From positions 1 to 64,000 of the forward strand of contig NZ_JAIFXZ010000015.1 of the NCBI RefSeq assembly GCF_021033825.1: a stretch of 64,000 bases of DNA, read 5' to 3'. Numbering within the stretch: the stretch's first letter is position 1; the number at the start of each line of letters is the position of its first letter. The stretch comes from Dietzia aurantiaca. GTDB lineage: Bacteria; Actinomycetota; Actinomycetes; Mycobacteriales; Mycobacteriaceae. Shown here in pieces: positions 39,435-53,981 of this stretch. The position numbers and the translations under genes were made by a program. The notes below the pieces were generated by a model that was not told the DNA's origin, searched no databases, and worked only from the letters and a program-made list of their open reading frames with translations.

Positions 39435-42400
39435 TCAGCCGCCGAGCGAGCTCAGTGACCCGAGCGATCCGGACGTTCCGCCGGTCCCGCCGACGAGGCT
39501 GCCGAGGGAGCCGGAGTCGAGCGAGCCGGAGCCGTTGTCGTCGCCACCACCTCCGCCCGCGGGCCGGACGGTGACGGTCTTCTCCACCGTCTGGTCACCC
39601 ACGGTGACCTTGAGGACGGTCTGCCCCTCCGCCGCGGGGGTCCACTCGCAGGTGGCGTTCCCGTCCTCGTCGAGCGTGACGCGGCAGATCTCGCGATCGC
39701 CGGAGATGATCACGACCTCCTCGCCCGCGTCACCGGTGACCTCGATCTCGACCTCCTGCCCGGCGACCGGCTGAGCCGGGGTCACAGTGATGGTCGGCTC
39801 GGTCGGATCAACCACGACCGGGTCGACCTGCAGTGTTCCACCGTTGCCCGCGTCCGAGGTGTTGTCGGCCGCATCGGTGGCGGTCACCGTTACCTGCTGG
39901 CCGTCCATGCCCTCGGTCGCCACGAAGCTGCACTCGAACGTCCCGTCCGTCGCGATGGCCTCGCACATCTCCACGCCGTCGACCATCACCGACACCGTCG
40001 AGTCGGCCTCGGCCGAGCCGGTGACCGTGACCGTTTGCCTCGCGGTGGCCGGCTGCGGCGAGACCGTAATCCCGGTGGGCGCCGCGGGGGCCTCGGTGTC
40101 CGGGGCCTCGACCACCGTGATGGTGGTGGCGGAGGCCGAGTCGGAGGCGCCGGTGGTGTTGTCGCCCGCGTAGTGCGCGGTCACTTGGACGGTGCCGGTC
40201 GCGGTCGGCGTCCACGGGCACTCCACGGTGCCGTCGGCCGCGACCTGGCCAGCGCACAGGACCTCGGTGCCGTTACGGAATTCCACGTCGGCGCCCACGT
40301 TTCCGCCGGTGACGGTAGCTGACAGGGTGGCCGGCTGGCCGGCGGTCGCCTGCGGTCCTGCGTCGACAGTGCTGATCGTAGTGGGCACCTTGCCCACCTC
40401 AATGCTCACCGGCTCGGACGTCGATCCGGCGACGGTAGCGTTGCCCGCGTACTGCGCGACGGCGCTCAGCGTGCCCGGGGTGCCGGGCGCCGTCCATGTG
40501 GCCGTGGCCTGGCCTGCGGAGACGGTCGGCGAGGCCACCACGGCGCCGCCCACCGTGATGTCGACGGTCTGGCCGTCGGCGATCCCGGTGGTATTCAGCT
40601 CAAACGTGACGGTGCCGTTGACCTCGACCGGGCTGGTCGCGGTCAGGGCAATGGTGGAGGTGGATTGCGCAACAGTGACGCTGGTCGCGTTGGGCGACTG
40701 CGAGACGCCGGTCGTCGCATCGCCCGGATAGTGTGCCCGCACGGTGACGGTCCCGGCGGTGGCCGGGGTCCAGTCGCACTCCACGGTGCCGTCGGCGTCG
40801 AGCTGACCGGTGCACAGCACGTCAGAGCCGTTACGGAACTGCACGTCGGCGCCTTCAGAACCCCCCGACACTGTGGCCGCCAGGGTGACCGGCTGGTCGA
40901 TGGTCGCGCCTGTAGACGCGGTGACGTTGGAGGTCTGGGTGGCGGTCTCGTCCACCGAGATCGTCAACGGTTGCGACTGGGCCGGCTCGGCCCAGTCAGA
41001 GCCGGCGTAGGTCGCGACGATCTCGAAGGTGCCGGTGCTGGCTGAGGACCACTGGTAGTTTGCCGCGCCGTCGGTGACGGTGGCGGTGCCATGGCTTGTC
41101 CCGTCGACCGTGATGTCCAGCTGCTCACCGTCGGCGATCCCGGCGGTGGTGATGATCAGGCCGGCGGCCTGCCCGGGCTGGACTGAGCCGGGTCCGGTCA
41201 GCTCGATGCTGGTGGCAGCGGCGGTGACCGTCACCGACATTCTGGACTGCTGTGACATGACGCCGTTGAGCGTGGCGAAGGCCTGGATCTGGTGCTGGCC
41301 CGACGGCAGGATGCCGAGCTCGCAACTGAACGCCCCGCTGGAGTCTGCAGTCGCAAAGCACTCGTGCTGTCCATCAAAGGTATAGACGGAGACCTCGGAA
41401 CCTGCGGGTGCCGTTCCGGAGACCGTGACGGTGTCTGCGGCGGTGGGGTTCGCGGGACTCACCGCGAGGTCGCTCGGCGCGGCCACGATCCCCTGGGCGA
41501 CGGTGACGGTGGTGGCGCCCGTGGATTGTGACGCCGAGGTGGTGGAGTCGCCGGCGTAGTGCGCGATGACGTTGACGGCGCCGACCTGACCCGGGGTCCA
41601 CTGGCAGGTCGCGGTGCCGTCGGCTGCGAGCTGGGCGGTGCACAGCTCGGTGTTGCCGTCGCGGAACACCACGTCGACGCCCTCGGTTCCGCTGGTGACG
41701 GCGGCGCTGAGGGTGACGGGCTCACCGGTAACCGGGTTCGTCGAAGCGGTGACGGCCGAGGTACTGGTGGCGGTCTCGGCTACCTCGACGGTGACCAGCT
41801 CGGACTCCGAGCCGGTCACGGTGTCTGTGCCAGCGTAGAAAGCCTTGATCTGATGCTCGCCGCTTGCAGTGGGGGCCCAGGCGTAGCTGGCCCGGCCGTT
41901 GTTCACCAGGCCGGTGCCGATCTCCGTGCCGCCCACCTGGAAGCTGATGCTCTGACCGTCGGCGATCCCAGTGGTGTCGGCGGTCAGGGTGGTGGCCTGG
42001 CCGACGCTCACCGTCGAGGGTGCCGTGAGGGTGACGGTCGACTGGGCGGCTCGGACGCTGACCGTGGTGGCGTTGGGCGACGACGACGACGTGGTGGTGC
42101 TGCTGCCCGGGTAGTGGGCGGTCACCTGGTAGTCGCCGGTGGCGTTGGGTGTCCAGTAGGCGGTGGCGACACCTCCGCTGGAGAGACTGACGGTATCCAG
42201 GACCGTCTCGCCGTCTCGAAATTCGATGATCTGGCCTGCGGTTCCGCCGGTGACGGTCGCGCTGAGCTGCACCTGCTCCCCCACTGTGGCGGTAGCTGGC
42301 GCGGCCACGTCGGACACCGAGGTCTGGACGAGGCCCACGGTGCCGGCCACAGCCGTCGAGGTGGAGGCCGCGTAGCCGGGCGAGCCGACATAGCGGGCCC

Positions 42401-43712
42401 TGAGGCTGTAGGGCTCGTTGGCTTGGCCCGCGGTCGGGGTCCATTCGATGCTGGCTACGCCGCCGTCGAGGGTGGCCGTGCCTAGGGTGTGACCGCCGTC
42501 GGTGAATTCGACTCTGTCGCCGTCGTTGCCCTCGGTGACGGTGGCGGTCAGGGTGGAGGCCTGGCCGGGCACCGGCGCCGGGTCCACGGCGAGGGTGGTG
42601 GAGGTCTGCTGGACGGGGTCGATCACATTGACGCCGACCTGTGGCGACAGCGAACTGGCAACGGTGGCCGTGCCCGCGTAGGCCGCGCGGATGGTGTAAT
42701 TGCCTGCGGTATCGGGGTTCCAGTCGGTGTAGATCGCGGTGCCGTCGGTGACGTTCGCGGTGCCGAGCGCCCGGCCGTCCACTCGGAACTCGACGGGTTC
42801 GCCATTCGGGATTCCGGTGGTGCTGGCGGTCAGCGGCACCGGGGACCCTGCCATGGCGGGTTCGGCTGCGGCGATGGAGATCGTTGACTGGATTTTGCCC
42901 ACTTCGACGGCCACTGAAGCCGGGCCGGCGGGGTGTGCGATCGCGGAGCCCGCGTAGGCGACCTCCACGTTCTTGGTGCCCGTGGAGTCGAAGGAGCGGG
43001 TGAAGGTGGCAGTGTTGCCGTTCACCGTTGCGGCGGCGTCGCCGGTGCCGTCGCCGCTGATAGCCACGGTTTCGCCGTCGCCGATTCCGGAGGTAGTGAC
43101 GGTGAAAGTCACATCCTCATCAATGACCGCAGCAGTGGGCGAGGCTGCCAGCGCGACCGAGGTGGCGTCCTTCTTGACCTGAATGTAAGGGCCCCCGAGG
43201 AAAGCACTGGGAGGAAAACTCTGATATCCGCCGAGGGTGCCGGCGACGTGCGCGGTCGATTCAAGATTCGTCTCCCGGGCACAGTTACTCGTCACGAGGT
43301 AGTCGACACTAAAGGTCAGGCGGCCACCCGGCGCGATCGACCTGTCTCCCTCCCAACGGACGTAGCCCATCCCCGCAAATTCAGTGTCGTGAGCGACGAC
43401 CTGGGGGGTGAATGCTTGTCCGCCGATCTTCGCCGAGCCAGCGACATATGTCAGACACTCTGGGTGCAAGTCTTTGTACGCATACAGATTGGCATGAGTG
43501 CCGCTGCGACGGAATTCGGCGTCAACAGTCACAATGTCACCTACCTCTAGCAACGCCGGAGTGATTGTCCGGGTCAGCCGCCAATTTTTGAGCTGCCCGT
43601 AATCTTCCCAATCCGACGCGGCATTGGCGACCGCGTTGCCACTGACCACAAGCGCAGCAGCCATCACCAGCGACCCGAAAAACACTACTGGCTTTCGCAA
43701 CCTGTTCTTCAT
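39435..43712 (-). CDS. Large exported protein with about 13 Ig-like domains and G/S/L tail
   Basis: A 1425-residue surface protein. Order: signal peptide (1-31, ending ANA), an N-terminal domain (about 32-165), about thirteen Ig-like modules of 85-95 residues, and a tail of about 35 residues with GSLDSGSLGSL and SGSLGSL. Two module types alternate: one with VTFELNTTGIADGQ-like cores, one with VEFRNG...CTGQL...VECDWTP cores. Paired cysteines occur only in the C-terminal half, probably as disulfides. It is likely a cell-surface adhesin or stalk. No LPXTG motif is seen. The N-terminal domain resembles those of the proteins at 43872 and 51126. The ATG at 43712 was used, after the gene's own promoter spacer and hairpins. 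Confidence 0.85.
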   Translation of the reverse strand: MKNRLRKPVVFFGSLVMAAALVVSGNAVANAASDWEDYGQLKNWRLTRTITPALLEVGDIVTVDAEFRRSGTHANLYAYKDLHPECLTYVAGSAKIGGQAFTPQVVAHDTEFAGMGYVRWEGDRSIAPGGRLTFSVDYLVTSNCARETNLESTAHVAGTLGGYQSFPPSAFLGGPYIQVKKDATSVALAASPTAAVIDEDVTFTVTTSGIGDGETVAISGDGTGDAAATVNGNTATFTRSFDSTGTKNVEVAYAGSAIAHPAGPASVAVEVGKIQSTISIAAAEPAMAGSPVPLTASTTGIPNGEPVEFRVDGRALGTANVTDGTAIYTDWNPDTAGNYTIRAAYAGTATVASSLSPQVGVNVIDPVQQTSTTLAVDPAPVPGQASTLTATVTEGNDGDRVEFTDGGHTLGTATLDGGVASIEWTPTAGQANEPYSLRARYVGSPGYAASTSTAVAGTVGLVQTSVSDVAAPATATVGEQVQLSATVTGGTAGQIIEFRDGETVLDTVSLSSGGVATAYWTPNATGDYQVTAHYPGSSTTTSSSSPNATTVSVRAAQSTVTLTAPSTVSVGQATTLTADTTGIADGQSISFQVGGTEIGTGLVNNGRASYAWAPTASGEHQIKAFYAGTDTVTGSESELVTVEVAETATSTSAVTASTNPVTGEPVTLSAAVTSGTEGVDVVFRDGNTELCTAQLAADGTATCQWTPGQVGAVNVIAHYAGDSTTSASQSTGATTVTVAQGIVAAPSDLAVSPANPTAADTVTVSGTAPAGSEVSVYTFDGQHECFATADSSGAFSCELGILPSGQHQIQAFATLNGVMSQQSRMSVTVTAAATSIELTGPGSVQPGQAAGLIITTAGIADGEQLDITVDGTSHGTATVTDGAANYQWSSASTGTFEIVATYAGSDWAEPAQSQPLTISVDETATQTSNVTASTGATIDQPVTLAATVSGGSEGADVQFRNGSDVLCTGQLDADGTVECDWTPATAGTVTVRAHYPGDATTGVSQSPNATSVTVAQSTSTIALTATSPVEVNGTVTFELNTTGIADGQTVDITVGGAVVASPTVSAGQATATWTAPGTPGTLSAVAQYAGNATVAGSTSEPVSIEVGKVPTTISTVDAGPQATAGQPATLSATVTGGNVGADVEFRNGTEVLCAGQVAADGTVECPWTPTATGTVQVTAHYAGDNTTGASDSASATTITVVEAPDTEAPAAPTGITVSPQPATARQTVTVTGSAEADSTVSVMVDGVEMCEAIATDGTFECSFVATEGMDGQQVTVTATDAADNTSDAGNGGTLQVDPVVVDPTEPTITVTPAQPVAGQEVEIEVTGDAGEEVVIISGDREICRVTLDEDGNATCEWTPAAEGQTVLKVTVGDQTVEKTVTVRPAGGGGGDDNGSGSLDSGSLGSLVGGTGGTSGSLGSLSSLGG

Positions 43713-43768
43713 GTGTGCCCCTTCCCCCGGGCGTCATCGAATGTGTGGCCGGGTGGGCCACATAAAGC

Positions 43769-43801
43769 AGAACGGCGGGGCGAATTCCGCCCCGCCGTTC
43801 T
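43769..43801 (-). terminator. Stem-loop terminator, 14-bp stem
   Basis: AGAACGGCGGGGCG (43769-43782) pairs perfectly with 43788-43801 around a 5-nt loop. It lies between the 507-aa Ig gene stop and the 1425-aa gene start, followed on the minus strand by a T-rich stretch. Confidence 0.65.
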
Positions 43802-43816
43802 AATGTTTCTGGGCGG

Positions 43817-43862
43817 CCACCCGATACTCTGCATGCCGTGTCACGGCATGAGGATCGGGTGG
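43817..43862 (-). terminator. Composite inverted repeat after the 507-aa Ig gene
   Basis: The inner palindrome CATGCCGTG-t-CACGGCATG (43832-43850) lies within outer arms CCACCCGAT (43817-43825) and ATCGGGTGG (43854-43862). It starts 10 bp past the stop codon and probably acts in tandem with the hairpin at 43769. Confidence 0.55.
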
Positions 43863-43871
43863 GCTTCGTCG

Positions 43872-45395
43872 TCAGCTACCAAAATTGCTCAGCGAGCCGA
43901 GCGAACCACTTGCGTTGCCGGCATCACTCGAACCGGTAAGCGAGCCGAGGCTGCCCGAGTTCGGGCCGTCCGGATCCGGGTCTGGCCCCGGCTCCGGCTC
44001 CGGCTCCGGCTCCACGATCGCGGGTGCGATGAACGTCTGCGTGGTGGCCTGCGAGGACAGGTAGACACCATGCCCGGAGAACACCGCGCGGACGGTACGG
44101 TCGCCTTCGGTGCTGGGGGTCCAGTTCACCGTGGCCTGACCGTTTCCATCGACAGGAGCCGTCCCGATCAGGGTCGACCCGTCGTAGAAGGAGACGGACC
44201 CGCCGGCCACCCCGGCGTCTACGGTCGCCGACAGCGTGATCTGCTCGCCGACCTGGCCGTGAGGGATCTGCGCGAGCGTGGTGTTTGTGGCAACGTCATT
44301 CGGATCGGCGGCTGCCACGTTGACGCTTGTCGCTCCATTGGAGGGGTTAACCCCGGTTCGTCCGGAGAAGTCGGCGTCGATGGTGCGCTCGCCTGCTGTC
44401 TGCGGGATCCAGTCGATGCTCGCGGCACCGTCGGCGCCCACGGGCGCGGAGCCGATCTCGGCACCTTGATCACTGAAGACGATTGTGCCGCCGGCTTCTG
44501 CCGGTGAAACCGTCGCGGTCAACTGCGTGACCTGGCCAACCTTCGCGCCGGCCGTGGCGTCGACCGACACGGTGGAATTCACATTGGCCTGCGAGACGGA
44601 CATTGTCCTCACCGCGGACGCGGATCCGCCGTGCGTGCCGGTCTGAACGAAGCTCGCGCGGACTTCCTTGGTTCCGGGACTGCTCGGGGTGTAAGTGAGC
44701 GTGGCATGGTTGTTGTTCACCGTTCCCACACCAGCGGGCGCACCGTCGATGGAGAACGCGACCTGGTCACCGTTGGGCACGTTGGTGGTGACGACGCTGA
44801 AGGTCACCTGCTGGCCGACTTGAGGGTGGGCGGGCTGTGTCAGGAACACAGAGGTGCCCAGGCGTTTGACGTTGACCGTGGGCCCGAGGGACATGGAGCC
44901 GCGGTAACTTCCGGCCACGGAGGCGAACTCCGCGCCGCCTGTAGGGACGTTTCCGGCATTACAGAGGACGGTGTAGTCCGTCTCCATCCAAAACCACGGC
45001 CCAACACCGGGGCCTGTCCATCCCACACGGTTTCCGGAGAACGAGAACTGGCCGTGTGGCTCGGAGATGTGGGCGCCGCCGCTGGCCTGTCCATTGGTTG
45101 TTCCGACGACGCGTTCGAAGCACGGTGGCACATCGCTTCGCACTCCGTAGAGCAGGTCAGCCGCGCTGGTGCGCTGCACATTGGTCCGCACGGTCACAAC
45201 ATCGCCATACGTCGGTGATGCCTCACTTACCGTGCGGTCGATACGGAAGCTTGAAACAAATGCTCCTGAGAACGTTTGGCTCGCACTGGCCTCGGCAGCG
45301 GATGCCACGCCTGCCCCACCGACGACGAGCGCAGCCCCCGCCATTGCCGTTGCGCTTGCCGCGGCGACTGCCCGGCGGATTGATCTTTGCCTCAT
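43872..45395 (-). CDS. Exported Ig-like repeat protein with G/S/L tail
   Basis: A 507-residue exported protein. It has a signal peptide (1-34, ending ASA), an N-terminal domain (about 40-175, TYGDVVTVRTNVQRTSAADL) with two Cys, three Ig-like modules with the core VSFYDGSTLIGTAPVDGNG, and a Pro/Glu/Asp linker. The C-terminus contains NSGSLGSLTG and SGSLGSLSNFGS. It resembles the 1425-aa protein in all parts and looks like a shorter paralogue. The gene lies 160 bp upstream of the larger one on the same strand. A cell-wall or outer-surface location is likely; there is no sortase motif. Confidence 0.82.
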   Translation of the reverse strand: MRQRSIRRAVAAASATAMAGAALVVGGAGVASAAEASASQTFSGAFVSSFRIDRTVSEASPTYGDVVTVRTNVQRTSAADLLYGVRSDVPPCFERVVGTTNGQASGGAHISEPHGQFSFSGNRVGWTGPGVGPWFWMETDYTVLCNAGNVPTGGAEFASVAGSYRGSMSLGPTVNVKRLGTSVFLTQPAHPQVGQQVTFSVVTTNVPNGDQVAFSIDGAPAGVGTVNNNHATLTYTPSSPGTKEVRASFVQTGTHGGSASAVRTMSVSQANVNSTVSVDATAGAKVGQVTQLTATVSPAEAGGTIVFSDQGAEIGSAPVGADGAASIDWIPQTAGERTIDADFSGRTGVNPSNGATSVNVAAADPNDVATNTTLAQIPHGQVGEQITLSATVDAGVAGGSVSFYDGSTLIGTAPVDGNGQATVNWTPSTEGDRTVRAVFSGHGVYLSSQATTQTFIAPAIVEPEPEPEPGPDPDPDGPNSGSLGSLTGSSDAGNASGSLGSLSNFGS

Positions 45396-45670
45396 CTGTT
45401 CCCCTCGTTCTCTAATGCACTCCGCGCGACTTGACGACTGTCCGCCATGACCTTCGCTCGGTGTGACGCGTGCAACAATAAACGATCCATCACTAAAAGA
45501 AAAGCCTTACCGAACAGCTGCCCTTTGCGCGCGACCGAGCTCGGAACCGCGGACTGACATGGGCATTCGTTAGCTTCGTCGCCTATCGGACAGCTGTACG
45601 ACGCTCTAAGGTCTAAAGCAGGTCGTGCCGCGCCCGGCGACTGCCGAGGTGACATGACAGGCGTGGTGCC

Positions 45671-46765
45671 TCAGGTCAGCTCACAAGTCTCCAGGTTCAC
45701 CGGCACAGTACGACCGGAAACGGTGACGGCAAGTCCGCCATCGGAACTTTCAATCCAACTCGCACCATCAACTTCGGCAGTGCACACTTCGCTACCTTTT
45801 CGGGTCACGATCAGCTGGGTCCGGCCATCGACAGCTTCGAGCCACACTTGGGAAGCGCCCACGGCGATCGGACTATCTCCGACCTGCGCTCGAACCGGCG
45901 CCTTTGCACCGGCCGAGGTTGAAGTGGGGGCTGTCGACGAGAGCGTCACAGCCGGAGAATTTGACTTGGCGGGCGCTGAGCTCGCGGGCCCAGTCGTTTT
46001 CTCAGTAGCCAACTTCGTGCCGTTGCCGGTCGGTGACGTAGTGGATTCGCTCGAAACCGGACTGGACCGAAGCGTGCTGATCGGCGTCGAGCTCGGTGAC
46101 GACGTCGCTGCCTCCGACCCGTTAGGCACGGCATCCAGCGCCGCCTCCTCCAAAGAGGTCAGCTCGTCAGACCTAACTGCGAATGGGATGCCATCGGGAT
46201 TCCAGTCATATTGGTTCTCCCAGGGCTGATTTAGAAGAGTTGGATGGCCTGTTTGCTCACACTCGGTTCGTCCAGTCGCGTAATCCTTGAATGAAATCCG
46301 TTGAGTTGGAGTGGCATAACCGGACGATACTGCAATTCCGTTGACTGTACGCACTCGCGCGTACAATACCTCGCGCCCGGAATCCCTAATACCGTTAACG
46401 CGCGTGGTCGTGCTCGGAACTGGATAACTTTGCCGTACCACTCCGTCAGGATCCCCGCTGCGCCAAGCAACTAATTCGAGGATATAGCCGGTGACATTAG
46501 GTACCGAATTCCAAACTATATCCGCGCGCCGGCCGGCTACCGAATCATACCAAGGCGCATTAGTTTCGCACCGAACACTCGACGTTAGCGGAGTTGGGAA
46601 ATAGTTCTGCGTCGCGATCCCGACCTTGGCTTGGCGTACATCATTTGGCGCGGCAAGTGTGTCGGCGGCCTGAAACATGCTGACGGCCACTACCACCGCG
46701 CCGCAGATCGCGATCGCGCCACGAAAAGCGATCGCCTTGGCGCGGAGCTGCTGAAACTTACTCAT
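45671..46765 (-). CDS. Exported protein with fibronectin-III-like domain and Ser/Thr-rich linker
   Basis: A 364-residue exported protein. A signal peptide (about 12-39, ending TLAAP) is followed by a Fn3-like domain (about 60-160, IVWNSVPNVTGYILELVAWR) with paired Cys, a Ser/Thr/Pro-rich stretch (about 220-280), and a C-terminal domain (about 290-364) with two Cys. Its base composition is lower in GC than its neighbours in 46200-46700. The ATG at 46765 is preceded by AGGAGG and overlaps the end of the signal peptidase gene by 8 bp, so it belongs to the SipW/TasA operon. No known family is recognised. Confidence 0.65.
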   Translation of the reverse strand: MSKFQQLRAKAIAFRGAIAICGAVVVAVSMFQAADTLAAPNDVRQAKVGIATQNYFPTPLTSSVRCETNAPWYDSVAGRRADIVWNSVPNVTGYILELVAWRSGDPDGVVRQSYPVPSTTTRVNGIRDSGREVLYARVRTVNGIAVSSGYATPTQRISFKDYATGRTECEQTGHPTLLNQPWENQYDWNPDGIPFAVRSDELTSLEEAALDAVPNGSEAATSSPSSTPISTLRSSPVSSESTTSPTGNGTKLATEKTTGPASSAPAKSNSPAVTLSSTAPTSTSAGAKAPVRAQVGDSPIAVGASQVWLEAVDGRTQLIVTRKGSEVCTAEVDGASWIESSDGGLAVTVSGRTVPVNLETCELT

Positions 46766-47363
46766 GACAGGCCTCCTCTATCTCGCGCGGAACCGCGCCA
46801 ATTGTTGCGAAATCGTCGCCGGAATCAGCTTGAACTGGCGTCGCTTCCCGAGTCCGACCGAACGCGATTACGCCCAGTCCCCCGGCCAGCATCCCGCCGA
46901 GGAAGATCGCGACCGGACTGGACAGCCACGCCACCGCATAGCCGAGACCGTTGATGTGGAAAAAGACGCGATCGGCCTCACCAATTGAGTACGGCATGGG
47001 GTCGTCGGCAGCATTGGCGTCACCGCGCATCGTTATGCTCACCTCGCCGTCTTCAAATGGATCCAGTGCCGTCACGCGGTGGGTGACACGCACCCCACTC
47101 GGGTTGGTCATGCTCACCACGTCACCCACCTCCAACTGCTGCGCGGGCACCGTCCGCGCCAACGCCAACGCCCCCGTTGTAATCGAGGGCGACATAGACC
47201 CGGACTGGAACACCAACGGCTTGATCCCCAGGAACATCGACAATGCGGCAGCGACAATGCAGATCGACCCCACAATCGCACCGATGTTCAGCGCCCACTC
47301 GCGCGCCCGGGACCGCGATGACTCCTGACTCTGACCGCTCTCGGCCTGCATCATGTCGATCAC
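46758..47363 (-). CDS. SipW-type signal peptidase I (second)
   Basis: A 201-residue membrane-anchored signal peptidase of the ER/archaeal (SipW) type. It has a membrane helix (about 28-50), catalytic Ser in QSGSMSPSI (S56), His instead of Lys in RVTHRV (H95), Asp in MRGDANAADD, and a C-terminal helix. It probably processes the TasA-like proteins encoded beside it. The GTG start at 47363 overlaps the previous stop (GTGA), and its 3' end overlaps the next gene by 8 bp. Confidence 0.85.
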   Translation of the reverse strand: MIDMMQAESGQSQESSRSRAREWALNIGAIVGSICIVAAALSMFLGIKPLVFQSGSMSPSITTGALALARTVPAQQLEVGDVVSMTNPSGVRVTHRVTALDPFEDGEVSITMRGDANAADDPMPYSIGEADRVFFHINGLGYAVAWLSSPVAIFLGGMLAGGLGVIAFGRTREATPVQADSGDDFATIGAVPREIEEACHE

Positions 47364-48001
47364 CCCGCTCCCTGCGCGATGCTCGCGTTGAAACCGAACG
47401 TGACCCCGACCTGAGCCATCCGGCTCTCGATGGGAGCATCAGCGTGAACGAGCGACTGGATGCAGTAGACGTCCGTGGTCTCCCCCGGCAGCTGCGCACC
47501 GGTGAGCAGTGTTGTGACAGTGGTGGCCGGTGCGGCCTGCGCCAATACCAGCGTGCCCGTGCAGGTCTGCCCGTCGGTGCCGCCACCCTCGTAGAGGCTT
47601 ACCGTCATGGCCTGTCGTAGGCTGGTCGCGTTGCCGCGAGCCTGGCTACCCGTACCGAACTGGGTCGTCAACTCGGACGTGACCAGATCCACCGAATAAA
47701 CCAAGTCGACCGTGCCGTTGTTCTCGAGATTGACCATCGCGGCAAAACTCTGGCCCCGGCCGAGGTTCGGTCTCAACCCGAACGAGACTTCCGAATCCTC
47801 ACCGTTGATGGTCAGGTCGAGAGTGTCCTCGGCGGTGCTGAACAGGCCAGTCTGCGCCGTCACCGTCTGCGACCACTGAGCGAGTGTTCCCACCGCGCCG
47901 AGACCGAAGACCATCCCCAGTGCGAGCGTTGCCCGCACCCTGGTCCAGCCCGACTCGCGCCAACGGAATGTGCGTGACAGTGCCCTATGCGGAGTCGTCA
48001 T
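47360..48001 (-). CDS. TasA/camelysin-like SipW-dependent protein (third substrate)
   Basis: A 213-residue exported protein. The signal has the SipW-dependent pattern: a hydrophobic run then TLAQWSQTVTAQTGLFS. The mature part is beta-rich (DLTINGEDSEVSFGL, AAMVNLENNGTVDLVYSV) with two Cys near the C-terminus. The ATG at 48001 was chosen because AAGGAG lies 6 nt upstream; it overlaps the first signal peptidase gene by 17 bp. It is probably a structural or accessory subunit of a surface fibre. Confidence 0.75.
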   Translation of the reverse strand: MTTPHRALSRTFRWRESGWTRVRATLALGMVFGLGAVGTLAQWSQTVTAQTGLFSTAEDTLDLTINGEDSEVSFGLRPNLGRGQSFAAMVNLENNGTVDLVYSVDLVTSELTTQFGTGSQARGNATSLRQAMTVSLYEGGGTDGQTCTGTLVLAQAAPATTVTTLLTGAQLPGETTDVYCIQSLVHADAPIESRMAQVGVTFGFNASIAQGAG

Positions 48002-48671
48002 GTCCGGCTCCTTCTTGCTGTTCATCATTACCAACCACCGCGCCATGACTCACCTGTGCATCCTCATCGGATCGTGCGCGATCAACGATCAGCGCGGACT
48101 GCTTCTCCCGTGACCGGTCCCGGACTCCGCTGCCGAACACCCATGCGGCGTACACGATCAGGCTGCCGGCCACGATGGTGATCGCTACCGCCCGAGTCTT
48201 ACCCGTGAGCAAGACGTTGACGCGCCCCAGCTGAGGCACCGAGTACCACAGCTTCCCGCGAATCTGCTCCGGTACCAGCGCCCAGTCATCCGCCACATTG
48301 TTGGCATCACCCCGGGTGTAGATCCGTCGCTGGCCAGACATGTCGTAGTAGATGTCCGTGATCCGGTGGGTCACCACTGACGGATCACCGGAGTAGGGCT
48401 GGAAGGTGATCACGTCCCCGGCGGCTAGGTTCTCGGGAGCCGTAGGTCTGACGACGACGAGTGCGCCCGGCGCGATACGCGGCTCCATCGATCCCGTGAG
48501 CACCGTGTACGCCTGTGCGCCTGTTGCTCGCGGAACCACAACTAGAGCCAGAAGGATGAATCCGCACGCTATGAACAACAGCCAGCCGCCGGTCGTGCGC
48601 ACCCACCACATCAGCGACGTTGACTCGTCTCGATCGGCGCGCGCGGTGGAGTCCTCGGTCGTGACGGTCAT
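47985..48671 (-). CDS. SipW-type signal peptidase I (first)
   Basis: A 228-residue membrane signal peptidase with catalytic Ser in VLTGSMEPRI (S61), His in VVTHRI (H102), and Asp motif TRGDANNVADDW (about 120-130). It has flanking membrane helices (about 28-48 and 180-200). The ATG at 48671 overlaps the preceding stop (ATGA). The C-terminal tail is charged. This and the second peptidase each follow a TasA-like gene, giving a substrate-peptidase-substrate-peptidase order. Confidence 0.86.
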   Translation of the reverse strand: MTVTTEDSTARADRDESTSLMWWVRTTGGWLLFIACGFILLALVVVPRATGAQAYTVLTGSMEPRIAPGALVVVRPTAPENLAAGDVITFQPYSGDPSVVTHRITDIYYDMSGQRRIYTRGDANNVADDWALVPEQIRGKLWYSVPQLGRVNVLLTGKTRAVAITIVAGSLIVYAAWVFGSGVRDRSREKQSALIVDRARSDEDAQVSHGAVVGNDEQQEGAGHDDSA

Positions 48672-49216
48672 TGCTGATCCGCCCGGAATGTGAAGACGTA
48701 GCTTCCGCTGAGCCCCGGGGTCAAAACCGTGCCCGCGGTTGTGGTCAGGCACAACACGTCCGTGGCCCCGTCTCCACTGACGTCAAGGTCAATATCAGCG
48801 GTGCTTGCATCGGTAATTTCGCCGCTGTATAACTCCGTTCCAGAAGTGCCGAAGGGCCCCGACGTGGGACAGTCACCCTCCTGAGACACCTGGGCAACAC
48901 GCAGGTCGAGCTCCGGCGGGGTAGATCCAGCCGCCGCGGTCACCCCAGCGAGCCGGTAGCTGACGGGAATCGTGCTGTCATTCACCACTGTCAACGGGAT
49001 CTGCGCCTGGCCTCCCGCGGCCATCTCCTCCTTGGTCAGTCCCGACACATCGAGCGCCAACTGACCACTACCGGTGATCCGCAGATGACCGGTGCTGACC
49101 GTCGCGCCATCTGTGCTTTGAGAGCTACTCCAGGCAGCGTCGGTGAACTGCAACGAGGTGAACCCGAGCAGTACCACCGACGCCCCTACGAGCGCCCATG
49201 TGACATGGGACTTCAC
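48668..49216 (-). CDS. TasA/camelysin-like SipW-dependent protein (second substrate)
   Basis: A 182-residue exported protein with the SipW-type signal (TDAAWSSSQSTDGATVSTGHLRIT) and a beta-rich mature domain with two Cys (GDCPTSG, DVLCLTT). It shares the STGHLRIT start of the mature domain with the next-upstream paralogue. The start is a GTG at 49216 with AAGGA upstream. Likely a fibre subunit or minor pilin. Confidence 0.78.
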   Translation of the reverse strand: MKSHVTWALVGASVVLLGFTSLQFTDAAWSSSQSTDGATVSTGHLRITGSGQLALDVSGLTKEEMAAGGQAQIPLTVVNDSTIPVSYRLAGVTAAAGSTPPELDLRVAQVSQEGDCPTSGPFGTSGTELYSGEITDASTADIDLDVSGDGATDVLCLTTTAGTVLTPGLSGSYVFTFRADQQ

Positions 49217-49225
49217 AAAGAATCC

Positions 49226-49747
49226 TTACGGGGTGACCTGGGCCGGGGCGGTCTGCTGGAGTGTGACCGTGATGTCGCCGATTGCGATCTCCTCGTCCAT
49301 TGACGCGATGGCTTCCTCATCGAAGGCGAGGGTGCCGCCGACTGTGACTTCTGTGCCATCGTCAGACTGATCCAGGTCTGCGAGCTCGCTGGTGGCGTCA
49401 GGTGTCCATGTCAGCCCCACCGGAAGAGCGCCAGTGGTTGCGTCCGTGGCGACCAACTCTGCCGTGAGGTTGGTTCCCTTGATCTCAAGCTTGTACGTAC
49501 CCTCGAAGCGGATCGAATCGCCCGGAGCGATGGTGTCGGTCGCGGGCGTGAAGTCGCCACTCACCCCGGGGGTGCTCCAGGTCCAGCCAGACTCACCGGC
49601 GACCTCGGTGATGCGGAGGTGTCCGGTCTGCACATCTCCACCGCCGAGCGACGCATCATCGCTCCACGCCGCGTATGTTCCGGCACCGCCGGCGAGCAGC
49701 AGGGCGGCCGCGCCGAGGGCGATTGCGCCCTTGGTGTTCTTCTTCAT
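49226..49747 (-). CDS. TasA/camelysin-like SipW-dependent protein (first, probable major subunit)
   Basis: A 173-residue exported protein with the SipW-type signal TYAAWSDDASLGGGDVQTGHLRIT and a cysteine-free beta-rich domain. The sequence pattern (DTIAPGDSIRFEGTYKLEI) fits the camelysin/TasA superfamily. It has the best start context in the cluster (GAGGGGAAAC before ATG 49747) and its own upstream spacer, so it may be the most expressed. It is followed by the second paralogue 9 bp later. Confidence 0.8.
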   Translation of the reverse strand: MKKNTKGAIALGAAALLLAGGAGTYAAWSDDASLGGGDVQTGHLRITEVAGESGWTWSTPGVSGDFTPATDTIAPGDSIRFEGTYKLEIKGTNLTAELVATDATTGALPVGLTWTPDATSELADLDQSDDGTEVTVGGTLAFDEEAIASMDEEIAIGDITVTLQQTAPAQVTP

Positions 49748-49927
49748 GTTTCCCCTCAAGGTGATCGGTACCGTGCGATAAATCCGCCCGGACCAGCGGT
49801 GCGATGTCACTGGCCACGGGCCATCTCATCGCTCGTATATGACGGACTCAGGTCCGCCATCGGTCAACAGCGGATGCTGACGACCGAGTTCAGGAGCCCC
49901 GGTGCGTCCAGGGCTGGTTGTGGGCCT

Positions 49928-50656
49928 CTATCCGAAGCCCAAGGAGGGGCTGCCGAGCGATCCGAAACCTCCGCTCGAACCCGACGAGCCACTCGAGCCC
50001 GAGGCCCCCGACGACCCGTTCCCGCCAGGGGAGCCGATCGAGCCGGAGCCGAGAGAACCGCCAATCCCGGACGAGCCCGACGAACCGGCGGAGCCGGAAC
50101 CGCCCCCGGAAGCCGGACGCTCCTGCAGGGTGATCCCCCAGTCCGGCGTGATCCGAGCCGATTGCTCCACCTCGCTGGAGGGCACGCCCACGTTGAGAGT
50201 CAGGAGCACCGACTCACCAGCGGGCAACGAGAACTCACTCATCAGAACGCCCGGCCCGGGAGCCTGCGCACCGGGCAGAACCCGCGGCTTTCCCTGGACA
50301 CCGTTGACGTCGACTCGGAACCACGCACTGCCGCGATCGATCGACCACTTGCCGAGGTACACCTCGCCGTTGACCGCCGTGTCGCCTCTCACCCGGAGAT
50401 GGAATGACGTCGAGTTCGGTGGGCCGCCCGGGACCGGGATCGTAGTGGTGTCCCAGGGAATGGACCCGACGCCGCCCCATGCGGTTCCGTCAGCGGAGTA
50501 CTGCTGACGCTCCCTGTCGACTGGAACCGCTTCGCTGGGGGCGGCGGTGGCCATGCAGCCCGCCGCGAGGAACGACACCACCGCGGCTGAGGCGGCAACC
50601 AAGGGTCCTCGACGACTCCGTGAGCAGAGTGTGCGCGGTGACAACAGGGCGGGCAT
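49928..50656 (-). CDS. Exported lipoprotein with Gly/Ser/Leu-rich tail
   Basis: A 242-residue protein with a lipobox (FLAAGC, C34), a middle beta-rich domain (about 80-165, SFHLRVRGDTAVNGEVYLGKW; DVNGVQGKPRVLPG), and a tail of about 70 residues almost wholly Gly/Ser with GSLGSGSIGS and GFGSLGSPSLGFG. It lies upstream of the TasA-like genes on the same strand with a 180-bp gap. It shares the tail type with the Ig-like proteins. No known family is recognised; it may be a surface anchor. Confidence 0.7.
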   Translation of the reverse strand: MPALLSPRTLCSRSRRGPLVAASAAVVSFLAAGCMATAAPSEAVPVDRERQQYSADGTAWGGVGSIPWDTTTIPVPGGPPNSTSFHLRVRGDTAVNGEVYLGKWSIDRGSAWFRVDVNGVQGKPRVLPGAQAPGPGVLMSEFSLPAGESVLLTLNVGVPSSEVEQSARITPDWGITLQERPASGGGSGSAGSSGSSGIGGSLGSGSIGSPGGNGSSGASGSSGSSGSSGGFGSLGSPSLGFG

Positions 50657-51125
50657 GACGAGTAACCTAACTCACACTTATTCGCCCGTCCAGGCCTACA
50701 TCATTTTTTCTTCACGCGAGCAGATCTGCAGCGCCAAAGGCGCGATTCCCCAATATTCGCAGCTTGAACACAGCGAGGCGGCCATTGACAGCTTTACCAT
50801 TCAGGGAAAACCTGTGGATTTACCGAGTTTCCGCCTCGACCATGGTGAGTACCAACTTATGTGGTGATTCACCGACATCGGACACCGTCACGAGCCCCAC
50901 CTACGGACCCCGCCCGCGAACCGTCATGGGGTAAGGTCACATTTATCCCCGCCAGCTGTGACGTACAGCACAGCGGGAGATCTGGGGCTGTACCAACGGA
51001 AATCATGGCCTGGAGAAGCGAGGACCAGCCCCGCGTCCAGCGCCCACGCACCCGCGACCGGCTCCGCCCACACCGTCGCAACCACCATTGCGCCGCCATT
51101 TTCGCCACGTCGAGAGGATCGATGA
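50657..51125. other. Low-GC intergenic region between divergent surface genes
   Basis: A 469-bp spacer whose part 50690-50880 is clearly less GC-rich than the rest of the window. It holds the promoters of the lipoprotein gene (minus) and the gene at 51126 (plus). A 70-codon frame at 50655-50867 exists, but its start lies in the opposite gene's start region and it has no ribosome site, so it is not called a gene. Confidence 0.5.
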
Positions 51126-51869
51126 ATGTCCGAGAACCGCAGGAAGACGGTCGCCCTGGGCGCCGCCGCAATAATGGCCCTGTCCGGCCTGACCGTCGGG
51201 ACCGCCACCGCGAGCGCACAAGCCGCCGACACGTCCAAGTGCGCGACCAGTCAGAAGGTGGAGCGCAGCTGGGCCGGCTCACTCGGCACCAGTTACTACA
51301 TCGAAAAGGAAGTCGTGGGCGATGGCACTGCGGCCCCCGGCGGCGAAGTGACCTTCCGGACCACCGTCAGTGGCGCCGGCGCGCTTGTGCGCGAGATCGT
51401 GGACTACCACCCTGCAGGCTTTGAGCTAGTCCGCGCCCGGGAGAGCGTCTGGAAGATCCTCGGCGGACAGTCCTGGGCCAACGTCACCGACGACGTACGG
51501 CATAATGCCAACAACAACTCGGTCACCCGTGCGAGTTCGGGTTGGACCACCGCCGGTGGCGCGTATTCCACCCTCGAGACCACCTACAAGGTGCCCAAGA
51601 ACGCGACCCCTGGCGACGTTCTCAACACCGGCGCAGGCACGGACATCGTGCTCGTCAACGGCGGCTGGACGGTCAACCCCATCAACACCTGCGTCACCAT
51701 CCGCGAGCCCAACGCCGCAGAGGCCGTCACCGGCAGCCTCGACGGCATGGGCCTCGGCTCCGTGACCTCCGGATCCACCACCGCGGGCGGCATCTCGAGC
51801 GACCCGGCCACCTTCAGCTCCGACATCATCAACGGGATCGACATCGGTCAGCTCATCGGCCTCAGCTGA
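51126..51869 (+). CDS. Small exported protein sharing the N-terminal domain of the Ig-like proteins
   Basis: A 247-residue exported protein with a signal peptide (about 1-35, ending SAQAAD), one beta-rich domain (about 40-195, PGGEVTFRTTVSGAGALVRE) with two Cys, and a Gly/Ser tail (TGSLDGMGLGSVTSGS) ending in IGQLIGLS. The domain resembles the N-terminal domains of the 1425-aa and 507-aa proteins, so it is a stand-alone version. The ATG at 51126 has AGAGGA upstream. It is divergent from the surface-protein operon. Confidence 0.72.
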   Translation: MSENRRKTVALGAAAIMALSGLTVGTATASAQAADTSKCATSQKVERSWAGSLGTSYYIEKEVVGDGTAAPGGEVTFRTTVSGAGALVREIVDYHPAGFELVRARESVWKILGGQSWANVTDDVRHNANNNSVTRASSGWTTAGGAYSTLETTYKVPKNATPGDVLNTGAGTDIVLVNGGWTVNPINTCVTIREPNAAEAVTGSLDGMGLGSVTSGSTTAGGISSDPATFSSDIINGIDIGQLIGLS

Positions 51870-51953: not shown

Positions 51954-53594
51954 CTACTTCGCGTCCGCCCAGTACGGATCCTTCAGCGTCCGCTTGACCA
52001 GCTTGCCGTTGGCCTGCCGAGGCAGTTCGTCCACCACGTCGATGGTGCGCGGCATCTTGAACTTGGCCAGCCGCCCGGCCAGGTCGTCGAGGATCTGCGC
52101 CTTGAGCTCATCGGACTCGTCAAAGCCCTCGGCCAGCTCGATCACGGCCTTGACCTCCTCGCCCCAGTCCTTGTGCGGGATCCCGAACACGGCCGCGTCG
52201 CGCACCGCCTCATGACGCGTCATCTCCGACTCGATCTCGGCCGGGTAGATGTTCACGCCGCCGGAGATGATCATGTCGTTCTTGCGGTCGCACAGGAACA
52301 GGTAGCCGTCGGCGTCGACGTAGCCGATGTCCCCCATGGTGAACAGCTCGCCGACATACGTCCTGGCGGTCTTCTCGGCATCCTGGTGGTACTCGAACTT
52401 GGAACCGTGCATCTGCAGGTAGACGTTCCCGATCTCGTCGGTGCCCAGCTCGTTGCCGTCGTCGTCGAGGATCTTCAAGGTCGTGGTCTTCCACGGCTTC
52501 CCCACACTGCCGGGCTTGCGCAGCCACTCCTCGCCGGTGATGGTGCAGCCGCCGCCCTCGGTGCCGGCGTAGTACTCGGTGAGCACCGGGCCCCACCAGT
52601 CGAGCATCGCCTGCTTGACGTGCTTGGGGCACGGGGCGGCGCCGTGGACAATCGTGCGCAGGCTCGACACGTCGTACTTCGCGCGCACGTCCTCCGGCAG
52701 CTCGAGCAGTCGCGAGAACTGGGTGGGCACCATGTGCGACTGCGTGACACCGTGCGCGTCGATGAGTCGCAGCATCTCCTCGGGCGTCCACTTGTCCATG
52801 AGCACCACGGCCTGGCCCAGGTTGAGCGAGATTGTGACGAAATTCAGCACGGCAGTGTGGTACAGCGGCGAGCCGCAGATGTGGACGTTGTCCGGCGCGT
52901 GGATGTCGAAGCCGGCAAAGAAATAGTAGTTGGGGACCGTCACCTGGTCGGGGCTCGCACCGGTCAGCGGCCGGCGCACGCCCTTGGGACGGCCGGTTGT
53001 GCCCGAGGTGTAGAGCATCGGGGCGCCGAGGGTGCGATCTGTCGGGAGCGACGACGAGGCCTCCCCCGCCCCACCGTCACCCGCGGCCGGGGCGGTCAGC
53101 TCGGCGAGCGGACGGAATCCGGGGACGTCGCCGATCGCGTAGCAGCGGGCCATGTCGAGTCCCGCCTCGGCCGCGGCGACTCCTGCGACGTCGGAGAACC
53201 GCTGGTCCGCGATGAACACCGTCGAACCGGAGTTGTCGATGATGTACGCGACCTCGGGGCCGGTGAGATGCCAGTTTGCCGGCGCCACGTAGAGGCCGAT
53301 CTCCAACGCGGCGTAGTAGACCTCGAGGAACTCGATCGAGTTGGGCGCCAGCAGCACGATGCAGTCACCGGTCTTCAGCCCCAGGTCCTGCAGGCCGCGG
53401 GCGAAGCCGTGGGCGGCGCCTGCGAGCTGGCCGAAGGTCACCTGGCGGCCGGGCTCGTCAGCGGAGCCGCCCTCGATGACCGCGACCCGGTCGGGCTCGG
53501 CCTCGGCGATACGGTAGACGCTGGTCACGTGCTCGCCGGTCCGCGGGTCCAGGATTCCGGCGTCGGCGGGGACGGTAGGCGTGGGTGCACTCAT
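51954..53594 (-). CDS. AMP-dependent acyl-CoA synthetase in the KstR-like regulon
   Basis: A 546-residue ligase with MLYTSGTTGRPKGVRRP, EYYAGTEGGGCTITGEEW, MGDIGYVDADGYLFLCDRKND, NIYPAEIE, and the C-terminal PRQANGKLVKR lysine. All are intact. It differs from FadD17 and FadD19 in this window and looks like the FadD4/FadD13/CaiC-type group. The near-perfect KstR-like site 12 bp upstream of the ATG at 53594 suggests it activates a sterol-derived acid; its substrate is unknown. An upstream extension of the frame is rejected because it crosses the operator. Confidence 0.88.
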   Translation of the reverse strand: MSAPTPTVPADAGILDPRTGEHVTSVYRIAEAEPDRVAVIEGGSADEPGRQVTFGQLAGAAHGFARGLQDLGLKTGDCIVLLAPNSIEFLEVYYAALEIGLYVAPANWHLTGPEVAYIIDNSGSTVFIADQRFSDVAGVAAAEAGLDMARCYAIGDVPGFRPLAELTAPAAGDGGAGEASSSLPTDRTLGAPMLYTSGTTGRPKGVRRPLTGASPDQVTVPNYYFFAGFDIHAPDNVHICGSPLYHTAVLNFVTISLNLGQAVVLMDKWTPEEMLRLIDAHGVTQSHMVPTQFSRLLELPEDVRAKYDVSSLRTIVHGAAPCPKHVKQAMLDWWGPVLTEYYAGTEGGGCTITGEEWLRKPGSVGKPWKTTTLKILDDDGNELGTDEIGNVYLQMHGSKFEYHQDAEKTARTYVGELFTMGDIGYVDADGYLFLCDRKNDMIISGGVNIYPAEIESEMTRHEAVRDAAVFGIPHKDWGEEVKAVIELAEGFDESDELKAQILDDLAGRLAKFKMPRTIDVVDELPRQANGKLVKRTLKDPYWADAK

Positions 53595-53981
53595 GCGCCC
53601 CACGATAGAACGTGTTCTATCTCTGCGGCGACCTTTCTCTAGGAGGCCATCCCTCACGCCAACGCCAGCGGGGCAAGGCATTGACGGCCGAGAGCATCTT
53701 ATTTAACTTATATTTCGAGGTCGCGCGAGGTGCGACCACGCGTGGTGCTCCAGCGGTCTGCTTCCCCACCGACGTCGGCCTGCCTTTCGGTCGACAACCA
53801 GACGGCAAAATCCCGCCAAGCGCAACACGGGCTTTCACGTTCCACATCCAACTCAATTCAACGAGACATCGCGAGATCGGACAAAGCCGTTCATGCTCGA
53901 GTCTCGGGAAGCAGGTGTGTCTTGCGCACCCCCATCGCTATTCCCCGCTCTGCGACCCTGAAGAAACGATCGCACCATGCC
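53595..53981. other. Intergenic region with AT-rich patch, operator and uncertain 5' end of the next gene
   Basis: It holds the KstR-like site and an AT-rich stretch near 53696-53720. It may include the true start of the exported hydrolase gene. Several open frames run through it, but none has a convincing start or protein-like composition. Confidence 0.45.
53606..53619. promoter_or_regulatory. KstR-like operator upstream of acyl-CoA synthetase
   Basis: TAGAACGTGTTCTA is palindromic apart from the central dinucleotide and is the best match in the window to TnnAACnnGTTnnA. It lies 12 bp upstream of the start codon at 53594. Confidence 0.86.

Follow-up and report, generated by a model that had tools for sequence, protein, structure and literature searches.

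A 12.6-kb SipW/TasA island in Dietzia aurantiaca contig NZ_JAIFXZ010000015.1 is read here, with a probability of roughly 0.6, as a horizontally exchanged surface-fibre module, in which a SipW-processed fibre of the TasA type would have Lpp as its base and be anchored in the mycomembrane by Gly-Ser-Leu segments. The window is the whole stretch analysed, the first 64,000 nucleotides of the contig. The core operon has the order TasA1-TasA2-SipW1-TasA3-SipW2-Fn3, and flanking it are the Ig-repeat proteins Ig1 and Ig2, the small beta-sandwich protein Lpp, and SecD, all with intact reading frames (Table 1). A reading of the letters alone, called here the sequence-only reading, had placed 2 SipW-type peptidases, 3 TasA/camelysin-like substrates, and 2 Ig-repeat proteins between an aldehyde dehydrogenase and an acyl-CoA synthetase, and these assignments all hold. 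SecD, a tenth gene, lies within its coordinates but was unnamed there, and the Gly-Ser-Leu tails, Lpp as a partner, the sortase-type counterparts outside the mycolate group, and cassette exchange are likewise absent from it.

Table 1. Features of the island and of its two edges, in window positions
Feature	Position	Strand	Remarks
Aldehyde dehydrogenase (flank)	37870..39330	-	One edge of the insertion site
Ig1, 1425-aa secreted stalk	39435..43712	-	Ordinary signal peptide, 11 Big_3_5 Ig repeats, C-terminal tail GSLDSGSLGSLV..GSLGSLSSLGG
Hairpin, terminator-like, between Ig2 and Ig1	43768..43802	-	16-bp stem; consensus scan
Ig2, 507-aa secreted stalk	43872..45395	-	3 Big_3_5 repeats, acidic Pro-rich spacer, SGSLGSL..GSLGSL tail
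Fn3-like, final core-operon gene	45671..46765	-	SipW-type signal ends in homologues; no Pfam match
SipW2, second SipW-type signal peptidase	46758..47363	-	NCBIfam scores and conserved residues
TasA3, camelysin/TasA-like substrate	47360..48046	-	Two invariant Cys; profiles, alignment, model
SipW1, main SipW-type signal peptidase	47985..48671	-	NCBIfam scores and conserved residues
TasA2, TasA-like substrate	48668..49216	-	Profile comparison with TasA3
TasA1, TIGR04089 (exp_by_SipW_III) substrate	49226..49747	-	Start placed at the ATG of MKKNTKG
Lpp	49928..50656	-	Beta-sandwich domain of about 136 aa and Gly-Ser-Leu tail; lipobox-like AGC in Dietzia members at the site
SecD, secreted	51126..51869	+	GSLDGMGLGSVTSGS segment close to the C terminus
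FadD-type acyl-CoA synthetase (flank)	51954..53681	-	Other edge of the insertion site

The start of SipW1 is set at the ATG at 48671, giving a 4-nt overlap with TasA2, while the mechanical open reading frame extends to 48752. As a class, the terminator-like hairpins of the consensus scan are weak, since there are 10 sites against 6.0 +/- 2.4 in shuffles. SipW1 scores 78 bits against TIGR02228, above the cut-off of 51.85, and SipW2 is slightly below it at 50.5; against NF046067 they score 71.7 and 40 bits, both under the cut-off of 190. The SM, HR, and GD residues are found in every aligned row of both peptidases (31 and 32 rows), identifying SipW1 and SipW2 from their motifs as ER-type (Ser-His) S26 signal peptidases with an Asp motif, the predicted catalytic Ser, His, and Asp being kept.

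The substrates have the signals to go with them, as Ala-x-Trp at the signal end is invariant in the alignments of all 3 TasA families. TasA1 is well over the TIGR04089 cut-off (110 bits against 60), and TasA3 comes to 18.7 against a cut-off of 19 for TIGR04088. TasA2 has no match at E = 1 in the Pfam and NCBIfam library scans; profile-profile alignment finds it homologous to TasA3, and its alignment to TasA1 is near the N terminus only. The TasA3 model has a mean pLDDT of 72. VIA-align finds as its best 3 matches only Bacillus subtilis TasA, one of them the fibre structure, with the row after these at 7.1, and in the Foldseek list TasA is not first. The model indicates that TasA3 has a TasA-like fold. 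The name of the Fn3-like protein is that of the sequence-only reading and nothing more, because Pfam gives no match, though the gene itself is present. A signal end of the SipW type (GTSAAF and similar) is seen in several of its homologues, so that Fn3 is probably a fourth SipW-type substrate, and in Rhodococcus/Prescottella it is fused to SipW2. TapA has no Pfam or NCBIfam match in scans of the island proteins, and a TapA-type accessory role could be open to Lpp or Fn3.

Amyloid-like fibres had been suggested as the model for the island. For the closest relative, we set amyloid aside as the mechanism and prefer donor-strand exchange, by which TasA fibres assemble according to their structure in PMC9674648. 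The operon has in common with tapA-sipW-tasA of B. subtilis, and with sipW-tasA plus calY of B. cereus, a SipW-type peptidase, SipW-type signals, and a TasA-fold subunit within one operon. Unlike them, it has 2 peptidases, 3 TasA-like families plus the probable fourth substrate, no TapA in the library scans, partners with Gly-Ser-Leu segments in Lpp, the Ig proteins, and SecD, and a host that is diderm and mycolate. The TIGR04089 and TIGR04088 models describe single proteins rather than a 2-peptidase operon or mycolate partners. The bundling pili of the archaeon Pyrobaculum calidifontis are also called TasA-like in PMC9674648; their structure 7ueg is a weak Foldseek match to both of our models (rank 39 for TasA3 and 16 for Lpp), and they differ from the island in host and genes.

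Conservation of gene order in relatives is found at 2 levels. The island gene set recurs in 4 other Dietzia genomes, edge to edge in 2 and cut by contig ends in 2, and the core is present in many genera, among them the non-mycolate Arthrobacter, Glutamicibacter, and Nocardioides; hence the island is more than chance. Because the core is found widely across actinobacteria, both those with mycolic acids and those lacking them, we take it as a form of the known SipW/TasA type. The proposal of such a system joined to Ig stalks in a mycolate host finds support in sequence, order, and fold, but the core is not specific to mycolate bacteria. The site is empty in 8/20 Dietzia genomes, with 36 to 77 nt between the aligned ends of the flanking genes, and elsewhere the core lies in other contexts, so the sterol-gene setting looks incidental and a sterol function of the island is judged unlikely. 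The core trees do not follow the insertion site, which indicates that the core has been exchanged independently of the Dietzia site, by cassette exchange. A simple, looser gene caller was chosen since the low third-position G+C (GC3) of the island genes hid most of them from a stricter one. Counts of core neighborhoods, strict tails, and the Dietzia site depend on this caller; tblastn recovered the genes that it overlooked, Lpp in L075/L246 and SipW1 or SipW2 in L038 and L039.

Lpp has a generic beta-sandwich domain for which the structure search gave no clear match. It had been called a lipoprotein, which fits the lipobox (AAGC, TAGC, or SAGC) of the window protein and 3 Dietzia members at the site, but not the aligned members from other genera or both G088 members, in which the lipobox is absent. 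In 25/26 genomes, no more than 12 kb separates a strong Lpp from a strong SipW1, so by these counts Lpp is associated with the SipW core, an association partly favored by the search because the profile was made from core neighbors. Searches further out find Lpp in 2/298 genomes of an order sample and 5/296 of a class sample, where misses are possible because at most 13 or 14 candidates were scored per genome, against up to 27 in the main search; in the class search with SipW1 the ceiling was 9. Four class-sample matches from outside the family are weak (E = 6e-4 to 7e-8): L158 and L159 have a sortase-type end by rule, L160 looks sortase-like by eye but does not pass the rule, and L161 shows neither kind of end.

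The ends of these proteins are the main point of interest. Lpp, Ig1, Ig2, and SecD have Gly-Ser-Leu segments at or close to the C terminus, and in none of the 4 is there a sortase-type C terminus (LPXTG-like motif, transmembrane segment, basic end). We compared 79 named loci, split into mycolate and non-mycolate by genus name and with L090 excluded. Tails by a strict rule are found in 34/892 open reading frames (ORFs) of mycolate loci against 0/665 of non-mycolate loci; a loose rule, of at least 2 GS plus a hydrophobic residue within the last 60, gives 42/892 against 8/665, and 3 or more such units give 30/892 against 0/665. Among strong Lpp-domain matches in mycolate loci, 25/30 have the tail, and 12/15 weak matches in non-mycolate loci end in a sortase-type signal of LPXTG-type motif, transmembrane segment, and basic end; these non-mycolate proteins are like Lpp in being small, exported, and adjoining the SipW core, and their kinship to Lpp is tentative because they score just 9 to 34 bits. 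Hence, there is an apparent anchor swap in the predicted proteins, from Gly-Ser-Leu tail in mycolate to sortase signal in non-mycolate Lpp-like proteins. It is not absolute, as a weak match in Dietzia genome G034 (L285) has a sortase-type end, and 10 further weak matches in mycolate loci have neither end. Sortase marks are probably false for mycolate ORFs in L093 and L101 and at least 3 non-mycolate ones (L124, L140, and one L133 SipW1).

Similar segments follow the signal peptides of mycoloyltransferases. The genome encodes a mycoloyltransferase of the Cmt1/MytC type, L238, at G000:C1:372361-373131, with its best matches to Cmt1 8qhf and 4h18 (E = 7e-38), which is perhaps a protein-acylating enzyme. 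Corynebacterium glutamicum has O-mycoloylated mycomembrane proteins, PorB and Cmt1 among them, whose lipid is carried on Ser/Gly-rich disordered termini or loops, and Dietzia resembles that species in having a Cmt1-like enzyme too; the portions of that literature compared here mention no GSLGSL segment, and PMC11066868 finds O-mycoloylation to lack a strict consensus. According to PMC10903876, what keeps VapA of R. equi on the cell surface is still to be identified. We propose from sequence that the Gly-Ser-Leu segments are mycomembrane-targeting and possibly O-mycoloylated. A wider version, which we put forward tentatively and with some doubt, is that a GSLGSL-type segment at either end of exported proteins in Dietzia, Tomitella, and Rhodococcus/Prescottella is a mycomembrane-targeting signal not described so far, which would stand in mycolate bacteria where similar proteins of non-mycolate relatives have the sortase signal and would act via serine O-mycoloylation; with it the island would fix Ig stalks and a TasA-type donor-strand fibre, with Lpp as the base, in the mycolic acid outer membrane. 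GSLGSL as a general mycolate trait was rejected, with no enrichment over controls in g29 (4 against 11, 9 genomes), g10 (7 against 7, 9 genomes), or g3 (10 against 14, 10 genomes); these are genera of the same family. Within the literature searched, the anchoring is the new part of the system, and NCBI already has a model for one substrate family. Among the papers listed, none dealt by title or abstract start with SipW/TasA systems of mycolate bacteria, which is weak evidence of absence as subscription papers and preprints were thinly covered, and among the matches listed for GSLGS all were off topic by title.

The course that we infer would run as follows. TasA1, TasA2, TasA3, and probably Fn3 would be exported by Sec and cleaved by SipW1 and SipW2, and once freed, the TasA-fold subunits would polymerise beyond the inner membrane through donor-strand exchange, like TasA. 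Lpp, Ig1, Ig2, and SecD would be processed by ordinary signal peptidase, and the Gly-Ser-Leu segment would keep them in the mycomembrane or on it, perhaps because the Cmt1-like enzyme O-mycoloylates its serines. Lpp would be the adapter or base, a role like that supposed for TapA in Bacillus, which the sortase-anchored counterparts may fill in non-mycolate actinobacteria.

The island might instead be an ordinary SipW/TasA member making a biofilm matrix fibre, with Ig, Lpp, and SecD as unrelated genes in a variable locus and the tails as flexible linkers. This would suit the loci having a core and no strict-rule tail (24/45 mycolate and 34/34 non-mycolate), the lack of a strong Lpp in 29/54 genomes with a strong SipW1, the sites of G034, G088, and G690, which have Ig- or SecD-like genes but no core, and the incongruence of core trees and site. 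We consider it rather unlikely, as Lpp keeps so close to SipW1 where both are strong, the tails are found on unrelated domains and behind the signal peptides of enzymes, and a sortase-type end on the non-mycolate Lpp-like proteins is unexpected for a plain linker. A system without filaments, in which the SipWs process secreted camelysin-like monomers (proteases, antimicrobial or spore-coat-like proteins), would draw on the weak match of TasA3 to Pfam camelysin (M73, E = 0.027); it is improbable given the 3 TasA structures, one a fibre, that lead the VIA list, the several TasA-like paralogues per operon, and the tandem TasA2-TasA3-Fn3 copies in genome G110, which are identical across most stretches compared and suit a structural protein made in bulk.

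That the island is a drifting remnant of recent foreign genes, expressed at a low level and without a settled role, is suggested by its G+C of 0.61 to 0.66 across 42 to 52 kb, a core GC3 of 0.60 to 0.80 where most flanking genes have about 0.9, and the empty site in other Dietzia. We find this highly improbable: the frames are intact, catalytic residues and signal motifs persist despite much divergence, and core GC3 at the same site in relatives is low too, at 0.66 to 0.83. The reading as an anchored and exchanged fibre module is the one we prefer.

Protein sorting to and retention in the mycomembrane is largely an open question. If such a terminal segment is indeed common to stalks, mycoloyltransferases, and a fibre partner, mycomembrane sorting could be put to direct test in soil bacteria. 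This operon brings TasA-type fibre genes into a diderm actinobacterial envelope as well, and offers 2 peptidases, one of them fused in relatives to its probable substrate.

Ten genes, nine of them on the minus strand, lie between the aldehyde dehydrogenase and the acyl-CoA synthetase of the window, on a 107 kb contig of a 3.77 Mb genome. From TasA1, the first of three SipW-type substrates, to Fn3, the gene coordinates overlap except for one gap of 9 nt, and hence we read this core as a single operon. Across 42-52 kb the G+C is 0.61-0.66, with GC3 in the core at 0.60-0.80 versus about 0.9 for most flanking genes.

Gene order of the island and its flanks
Feature	Position	Strand	Description
Acyl-CoA synthetase	51954-53681		flank
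SecD		plus	secreted protein
Lpp		minus	small beta-sandwich protein
TasA1		minus	substrate, core
TasA2		minus	substrate, core
SipW1		minus	signal peptidase, core
TasA3		minus	substrate, core
SipW2		minus	signal peptidase, core
Fn3		minus	last core gene
Ig2		minus	Ig-repeat stalk
Hairpin			Ig2/Ig1 intergenic
Ig1		minus	Ig-repeat stalk
Acyl-CoA synthetase	51954-53681		flank

The core, widespread and partly covered by NCBI models, is a variant of the SipW/TasA kind. SipW1 relatives are found in 73 of the 151 family genomes sampled, 54 being judged strong on reading the matches, and the SipW1 profile matched at E 1e-20 or better in 42 of 296 class-sample genomes, with at most nine candidates scored per genome. 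The best 80 of 163 SipW1 relatives in named genomes were retained, and these include the mycolate genera Rhodococcus, Prescottella, Tomitella, Gordonia and Williamsia, along with further genera that lack mycolic acids, among them Arthrobacter, Glutamicibacter, Nocardioides, Pimelobacter and Aeromicrobium. A similar island with tails, at identities of 37-66 percent, occurs in locus L090 (DVLP01000220.1), binned as Candidatus Avipropionibacterium avicola, a contig that may be of mycolate origin and in the wrong bin.

The Lpp domain (136 aa) is modeled as a beta-sandwich with pLDDT 89, and structure comparisons of the model gave no clear match. Lpp occurs in 28/151 family genomes, strongly in 26, and in 25 of those 26 a strong SipW1 shares the contig with Lpp, no more than 12 kb away (Fisher p 1.5e-12, a value that takes genomes as unrelated and carries no correction for where the Lpp profile came from). 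The converse fails: a strong Lpp is missing from 29 of the 54 genomes with a strong SipW1. A distant Lpp paralogue with a GS-rich C-terminal part lies away from the island in the same genome (G000:C6:67598-68002, E 4e-8).

GSLGSL-like segments terminate Lpp, Ig1 and Ig2, and SecD has one close to its end. The motif is in the last 60 residues of 25/28 strong Lpp rows, by a looser criterion than our strict tail rule, which requires a GS[LIVFM][GSD] match among the final 60 residues and a combined Gly and Ser content of 35 percent or more over the final 30. Strict tails end 34 of 892 ORFs from 45 mycolate loci (in 21 loci) versus 0 of 665 from 34 non-mycolate loci, these loci being non-independent, picked by SipW1 similarity, and possibly including the same genome twice. 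A loose rule gives 42 mycolate versus 8 non-mycolate ORFs, and 30 versus 0 at three or more matches. TasA1-like proteins of L041 (R. hoagii) and L061 (Rhodococcus sp. P-2) have GSLGS a few residues after a lipobox-like Cys, so the motif there also adjoins a probable N-terminal lipid anchor.

What ends these proteins differs between the two groups of genera when the Lpp-domain profile is run on the named loci, L090 set aside. Among 30 strong mycolate matches (80 bits or more), the strict tail is present in 25, and no match shows a sortase-type end, recognised as LPDTG or similar, a hydrophobic stretch and basic residues; among 15 weak non-mycolate matches (9-34 bits), 12 have the sortase-type end and none the tail. 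Ten weak mycolate matches have neither. A weak match in Dietzia G034 (L285) does end in the sortase-type way. If the weak matches are true kin, sortase would attach to the wall of monoderms the same kind of core-adjacent protein that in mycolates ends in Gly-Ser-Leu. Small exported proteins with LPXTG-type ends adjoin the SipW core in non-mycolate loci (L106, L118, L119, L122, L127, L133, L134, L141, L151 and others), which suggests wall-anchored versions of the system.

Counted as a DNA pattern against its reversed control, GSLGSL gives 60 versus 18 in 11 Dietzia genomes, 119 versus 28 in 9 genomes of the group with the Rhodococcus hoagii and Prescottella equi loci (g9), 31 versus 11 in 5 Tomitella genomes (g13), and 355 versus 322 in 268 genomes outside the order. 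A wider pattern matches 21 times in the window's own genome (control 12). The secreted proteins outside the island that have it in frame are a further Ig protein, at the C terminus, two enzymes, immediately behind the signal peptide, and one small protein. Signal or membrane segments are marked in 6 of the 10 first-fetched Dietzia pattern loci, one per genome (L204-L207, L212, L213; L212 is a membrane protein), and in 0 of 10 class pattern loci. Eight esterase-family (PF00756) proteins were inspected of 11 matches. A GSL/GS-rich stretch between signal peptide and catalytic domain is clear in five, the own genome's mycoloyltransferase-like L235, L236 (PS1-like), L237, L240 and L243, the last with an additional stretch at the C terminus; it is weaker in the Cmt1-like L238, and L239 and L241 have none. 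PMC11066868 lists C. glutamicum Cmt1, Cmt2 and PS1 among the O-mycoloylated proteins, with the Cmt1 sites in a disordered loop.

At the chosen threshold, 20/23 Dietzia genomes have the synthetase. In 8/20 the dehydrogenase comes next downstream of it, with 36-77 nt between aligned ends; in G150 no dehydrogenase was found within the stretch downstream. The island is at the site in 5/20, edge to edge in the window, G072 and G139; the contig stops inside Ig1 in D. aerolata (G687) and after a piece of Fn3 in G055. Another 6/20 have smaller contents: an Ig1-like protein (G088), SecD-like plus Ig2-like proteins (G034), SecD (G690), a Gly-Ser-Leu protein (G115), and about 1.65 kb (G694 and G695). The SipW1 tree joins the copies of the window and D. 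aerolata to G088 and G127 copies located elsewhere (100/99), apart from the same-site copies of G072, G139 and G055. The TasA2 tree is concordant (100/100 for four rows, with G088's first copy elsewhere), as is the SipW2 tree with weaker support (90/74). Since the groupings do not follow the site, we conclude that the core is an exchanged cassette. The Tomitella biformata core is very similar to that of Rhodococcus, with short branches in three trees (L078/L044 versus L077, L079, L080, L081), suggesting recent transfer.

Other arrangements were seen. The window's genome encodes one more SipW-type peptidase, less closely related and next to a TasA-like gene (L067, G000:C1 415000-433000, at ~C1:423077-423986), and other Dietzia (L069, L071, L072) have SipW2-like relatives. 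In the one-contig genome G110, a 3226-bp TasA2-TasA3-Fn3 unit is repeated head to tail (L062, C1, ~2196800-2206000), its copies identical over most compared stretches; either the fibre subunits were amplified recently or the repeat stems from the assembly. Within named loci L091-L107 (e.g. L093, L101), SipW2 is fused in frame to a SipW-type signal plus an additional domain, a peptidase that carries its own probable substrate.

We propose that SipW1 and SipW2 mature the precursors, a step well supported by sequence, and that the TasA-fold subunits would assemble via donor-strand exchange, as supported by the fold and by the TasA fibre structure (PMC9674648). Lpp would be the base, and the Gly-Ser-Leu segments would secure it and the Ig stalks to the mycomembrane, perhaps through O-mycoloylation; base and fastening are assigned by association only. 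In Bacillus cereus, TasA/CalY filaments are governed by a chaperone-like protein (PMC13082335), and hence accessory parts of SipW/TasA systems vary. The Lpp partner and the Gly-Ser-Leu tails are undescribed as far as the literature searched shows, and together with the anchor swap they merit a bench test.
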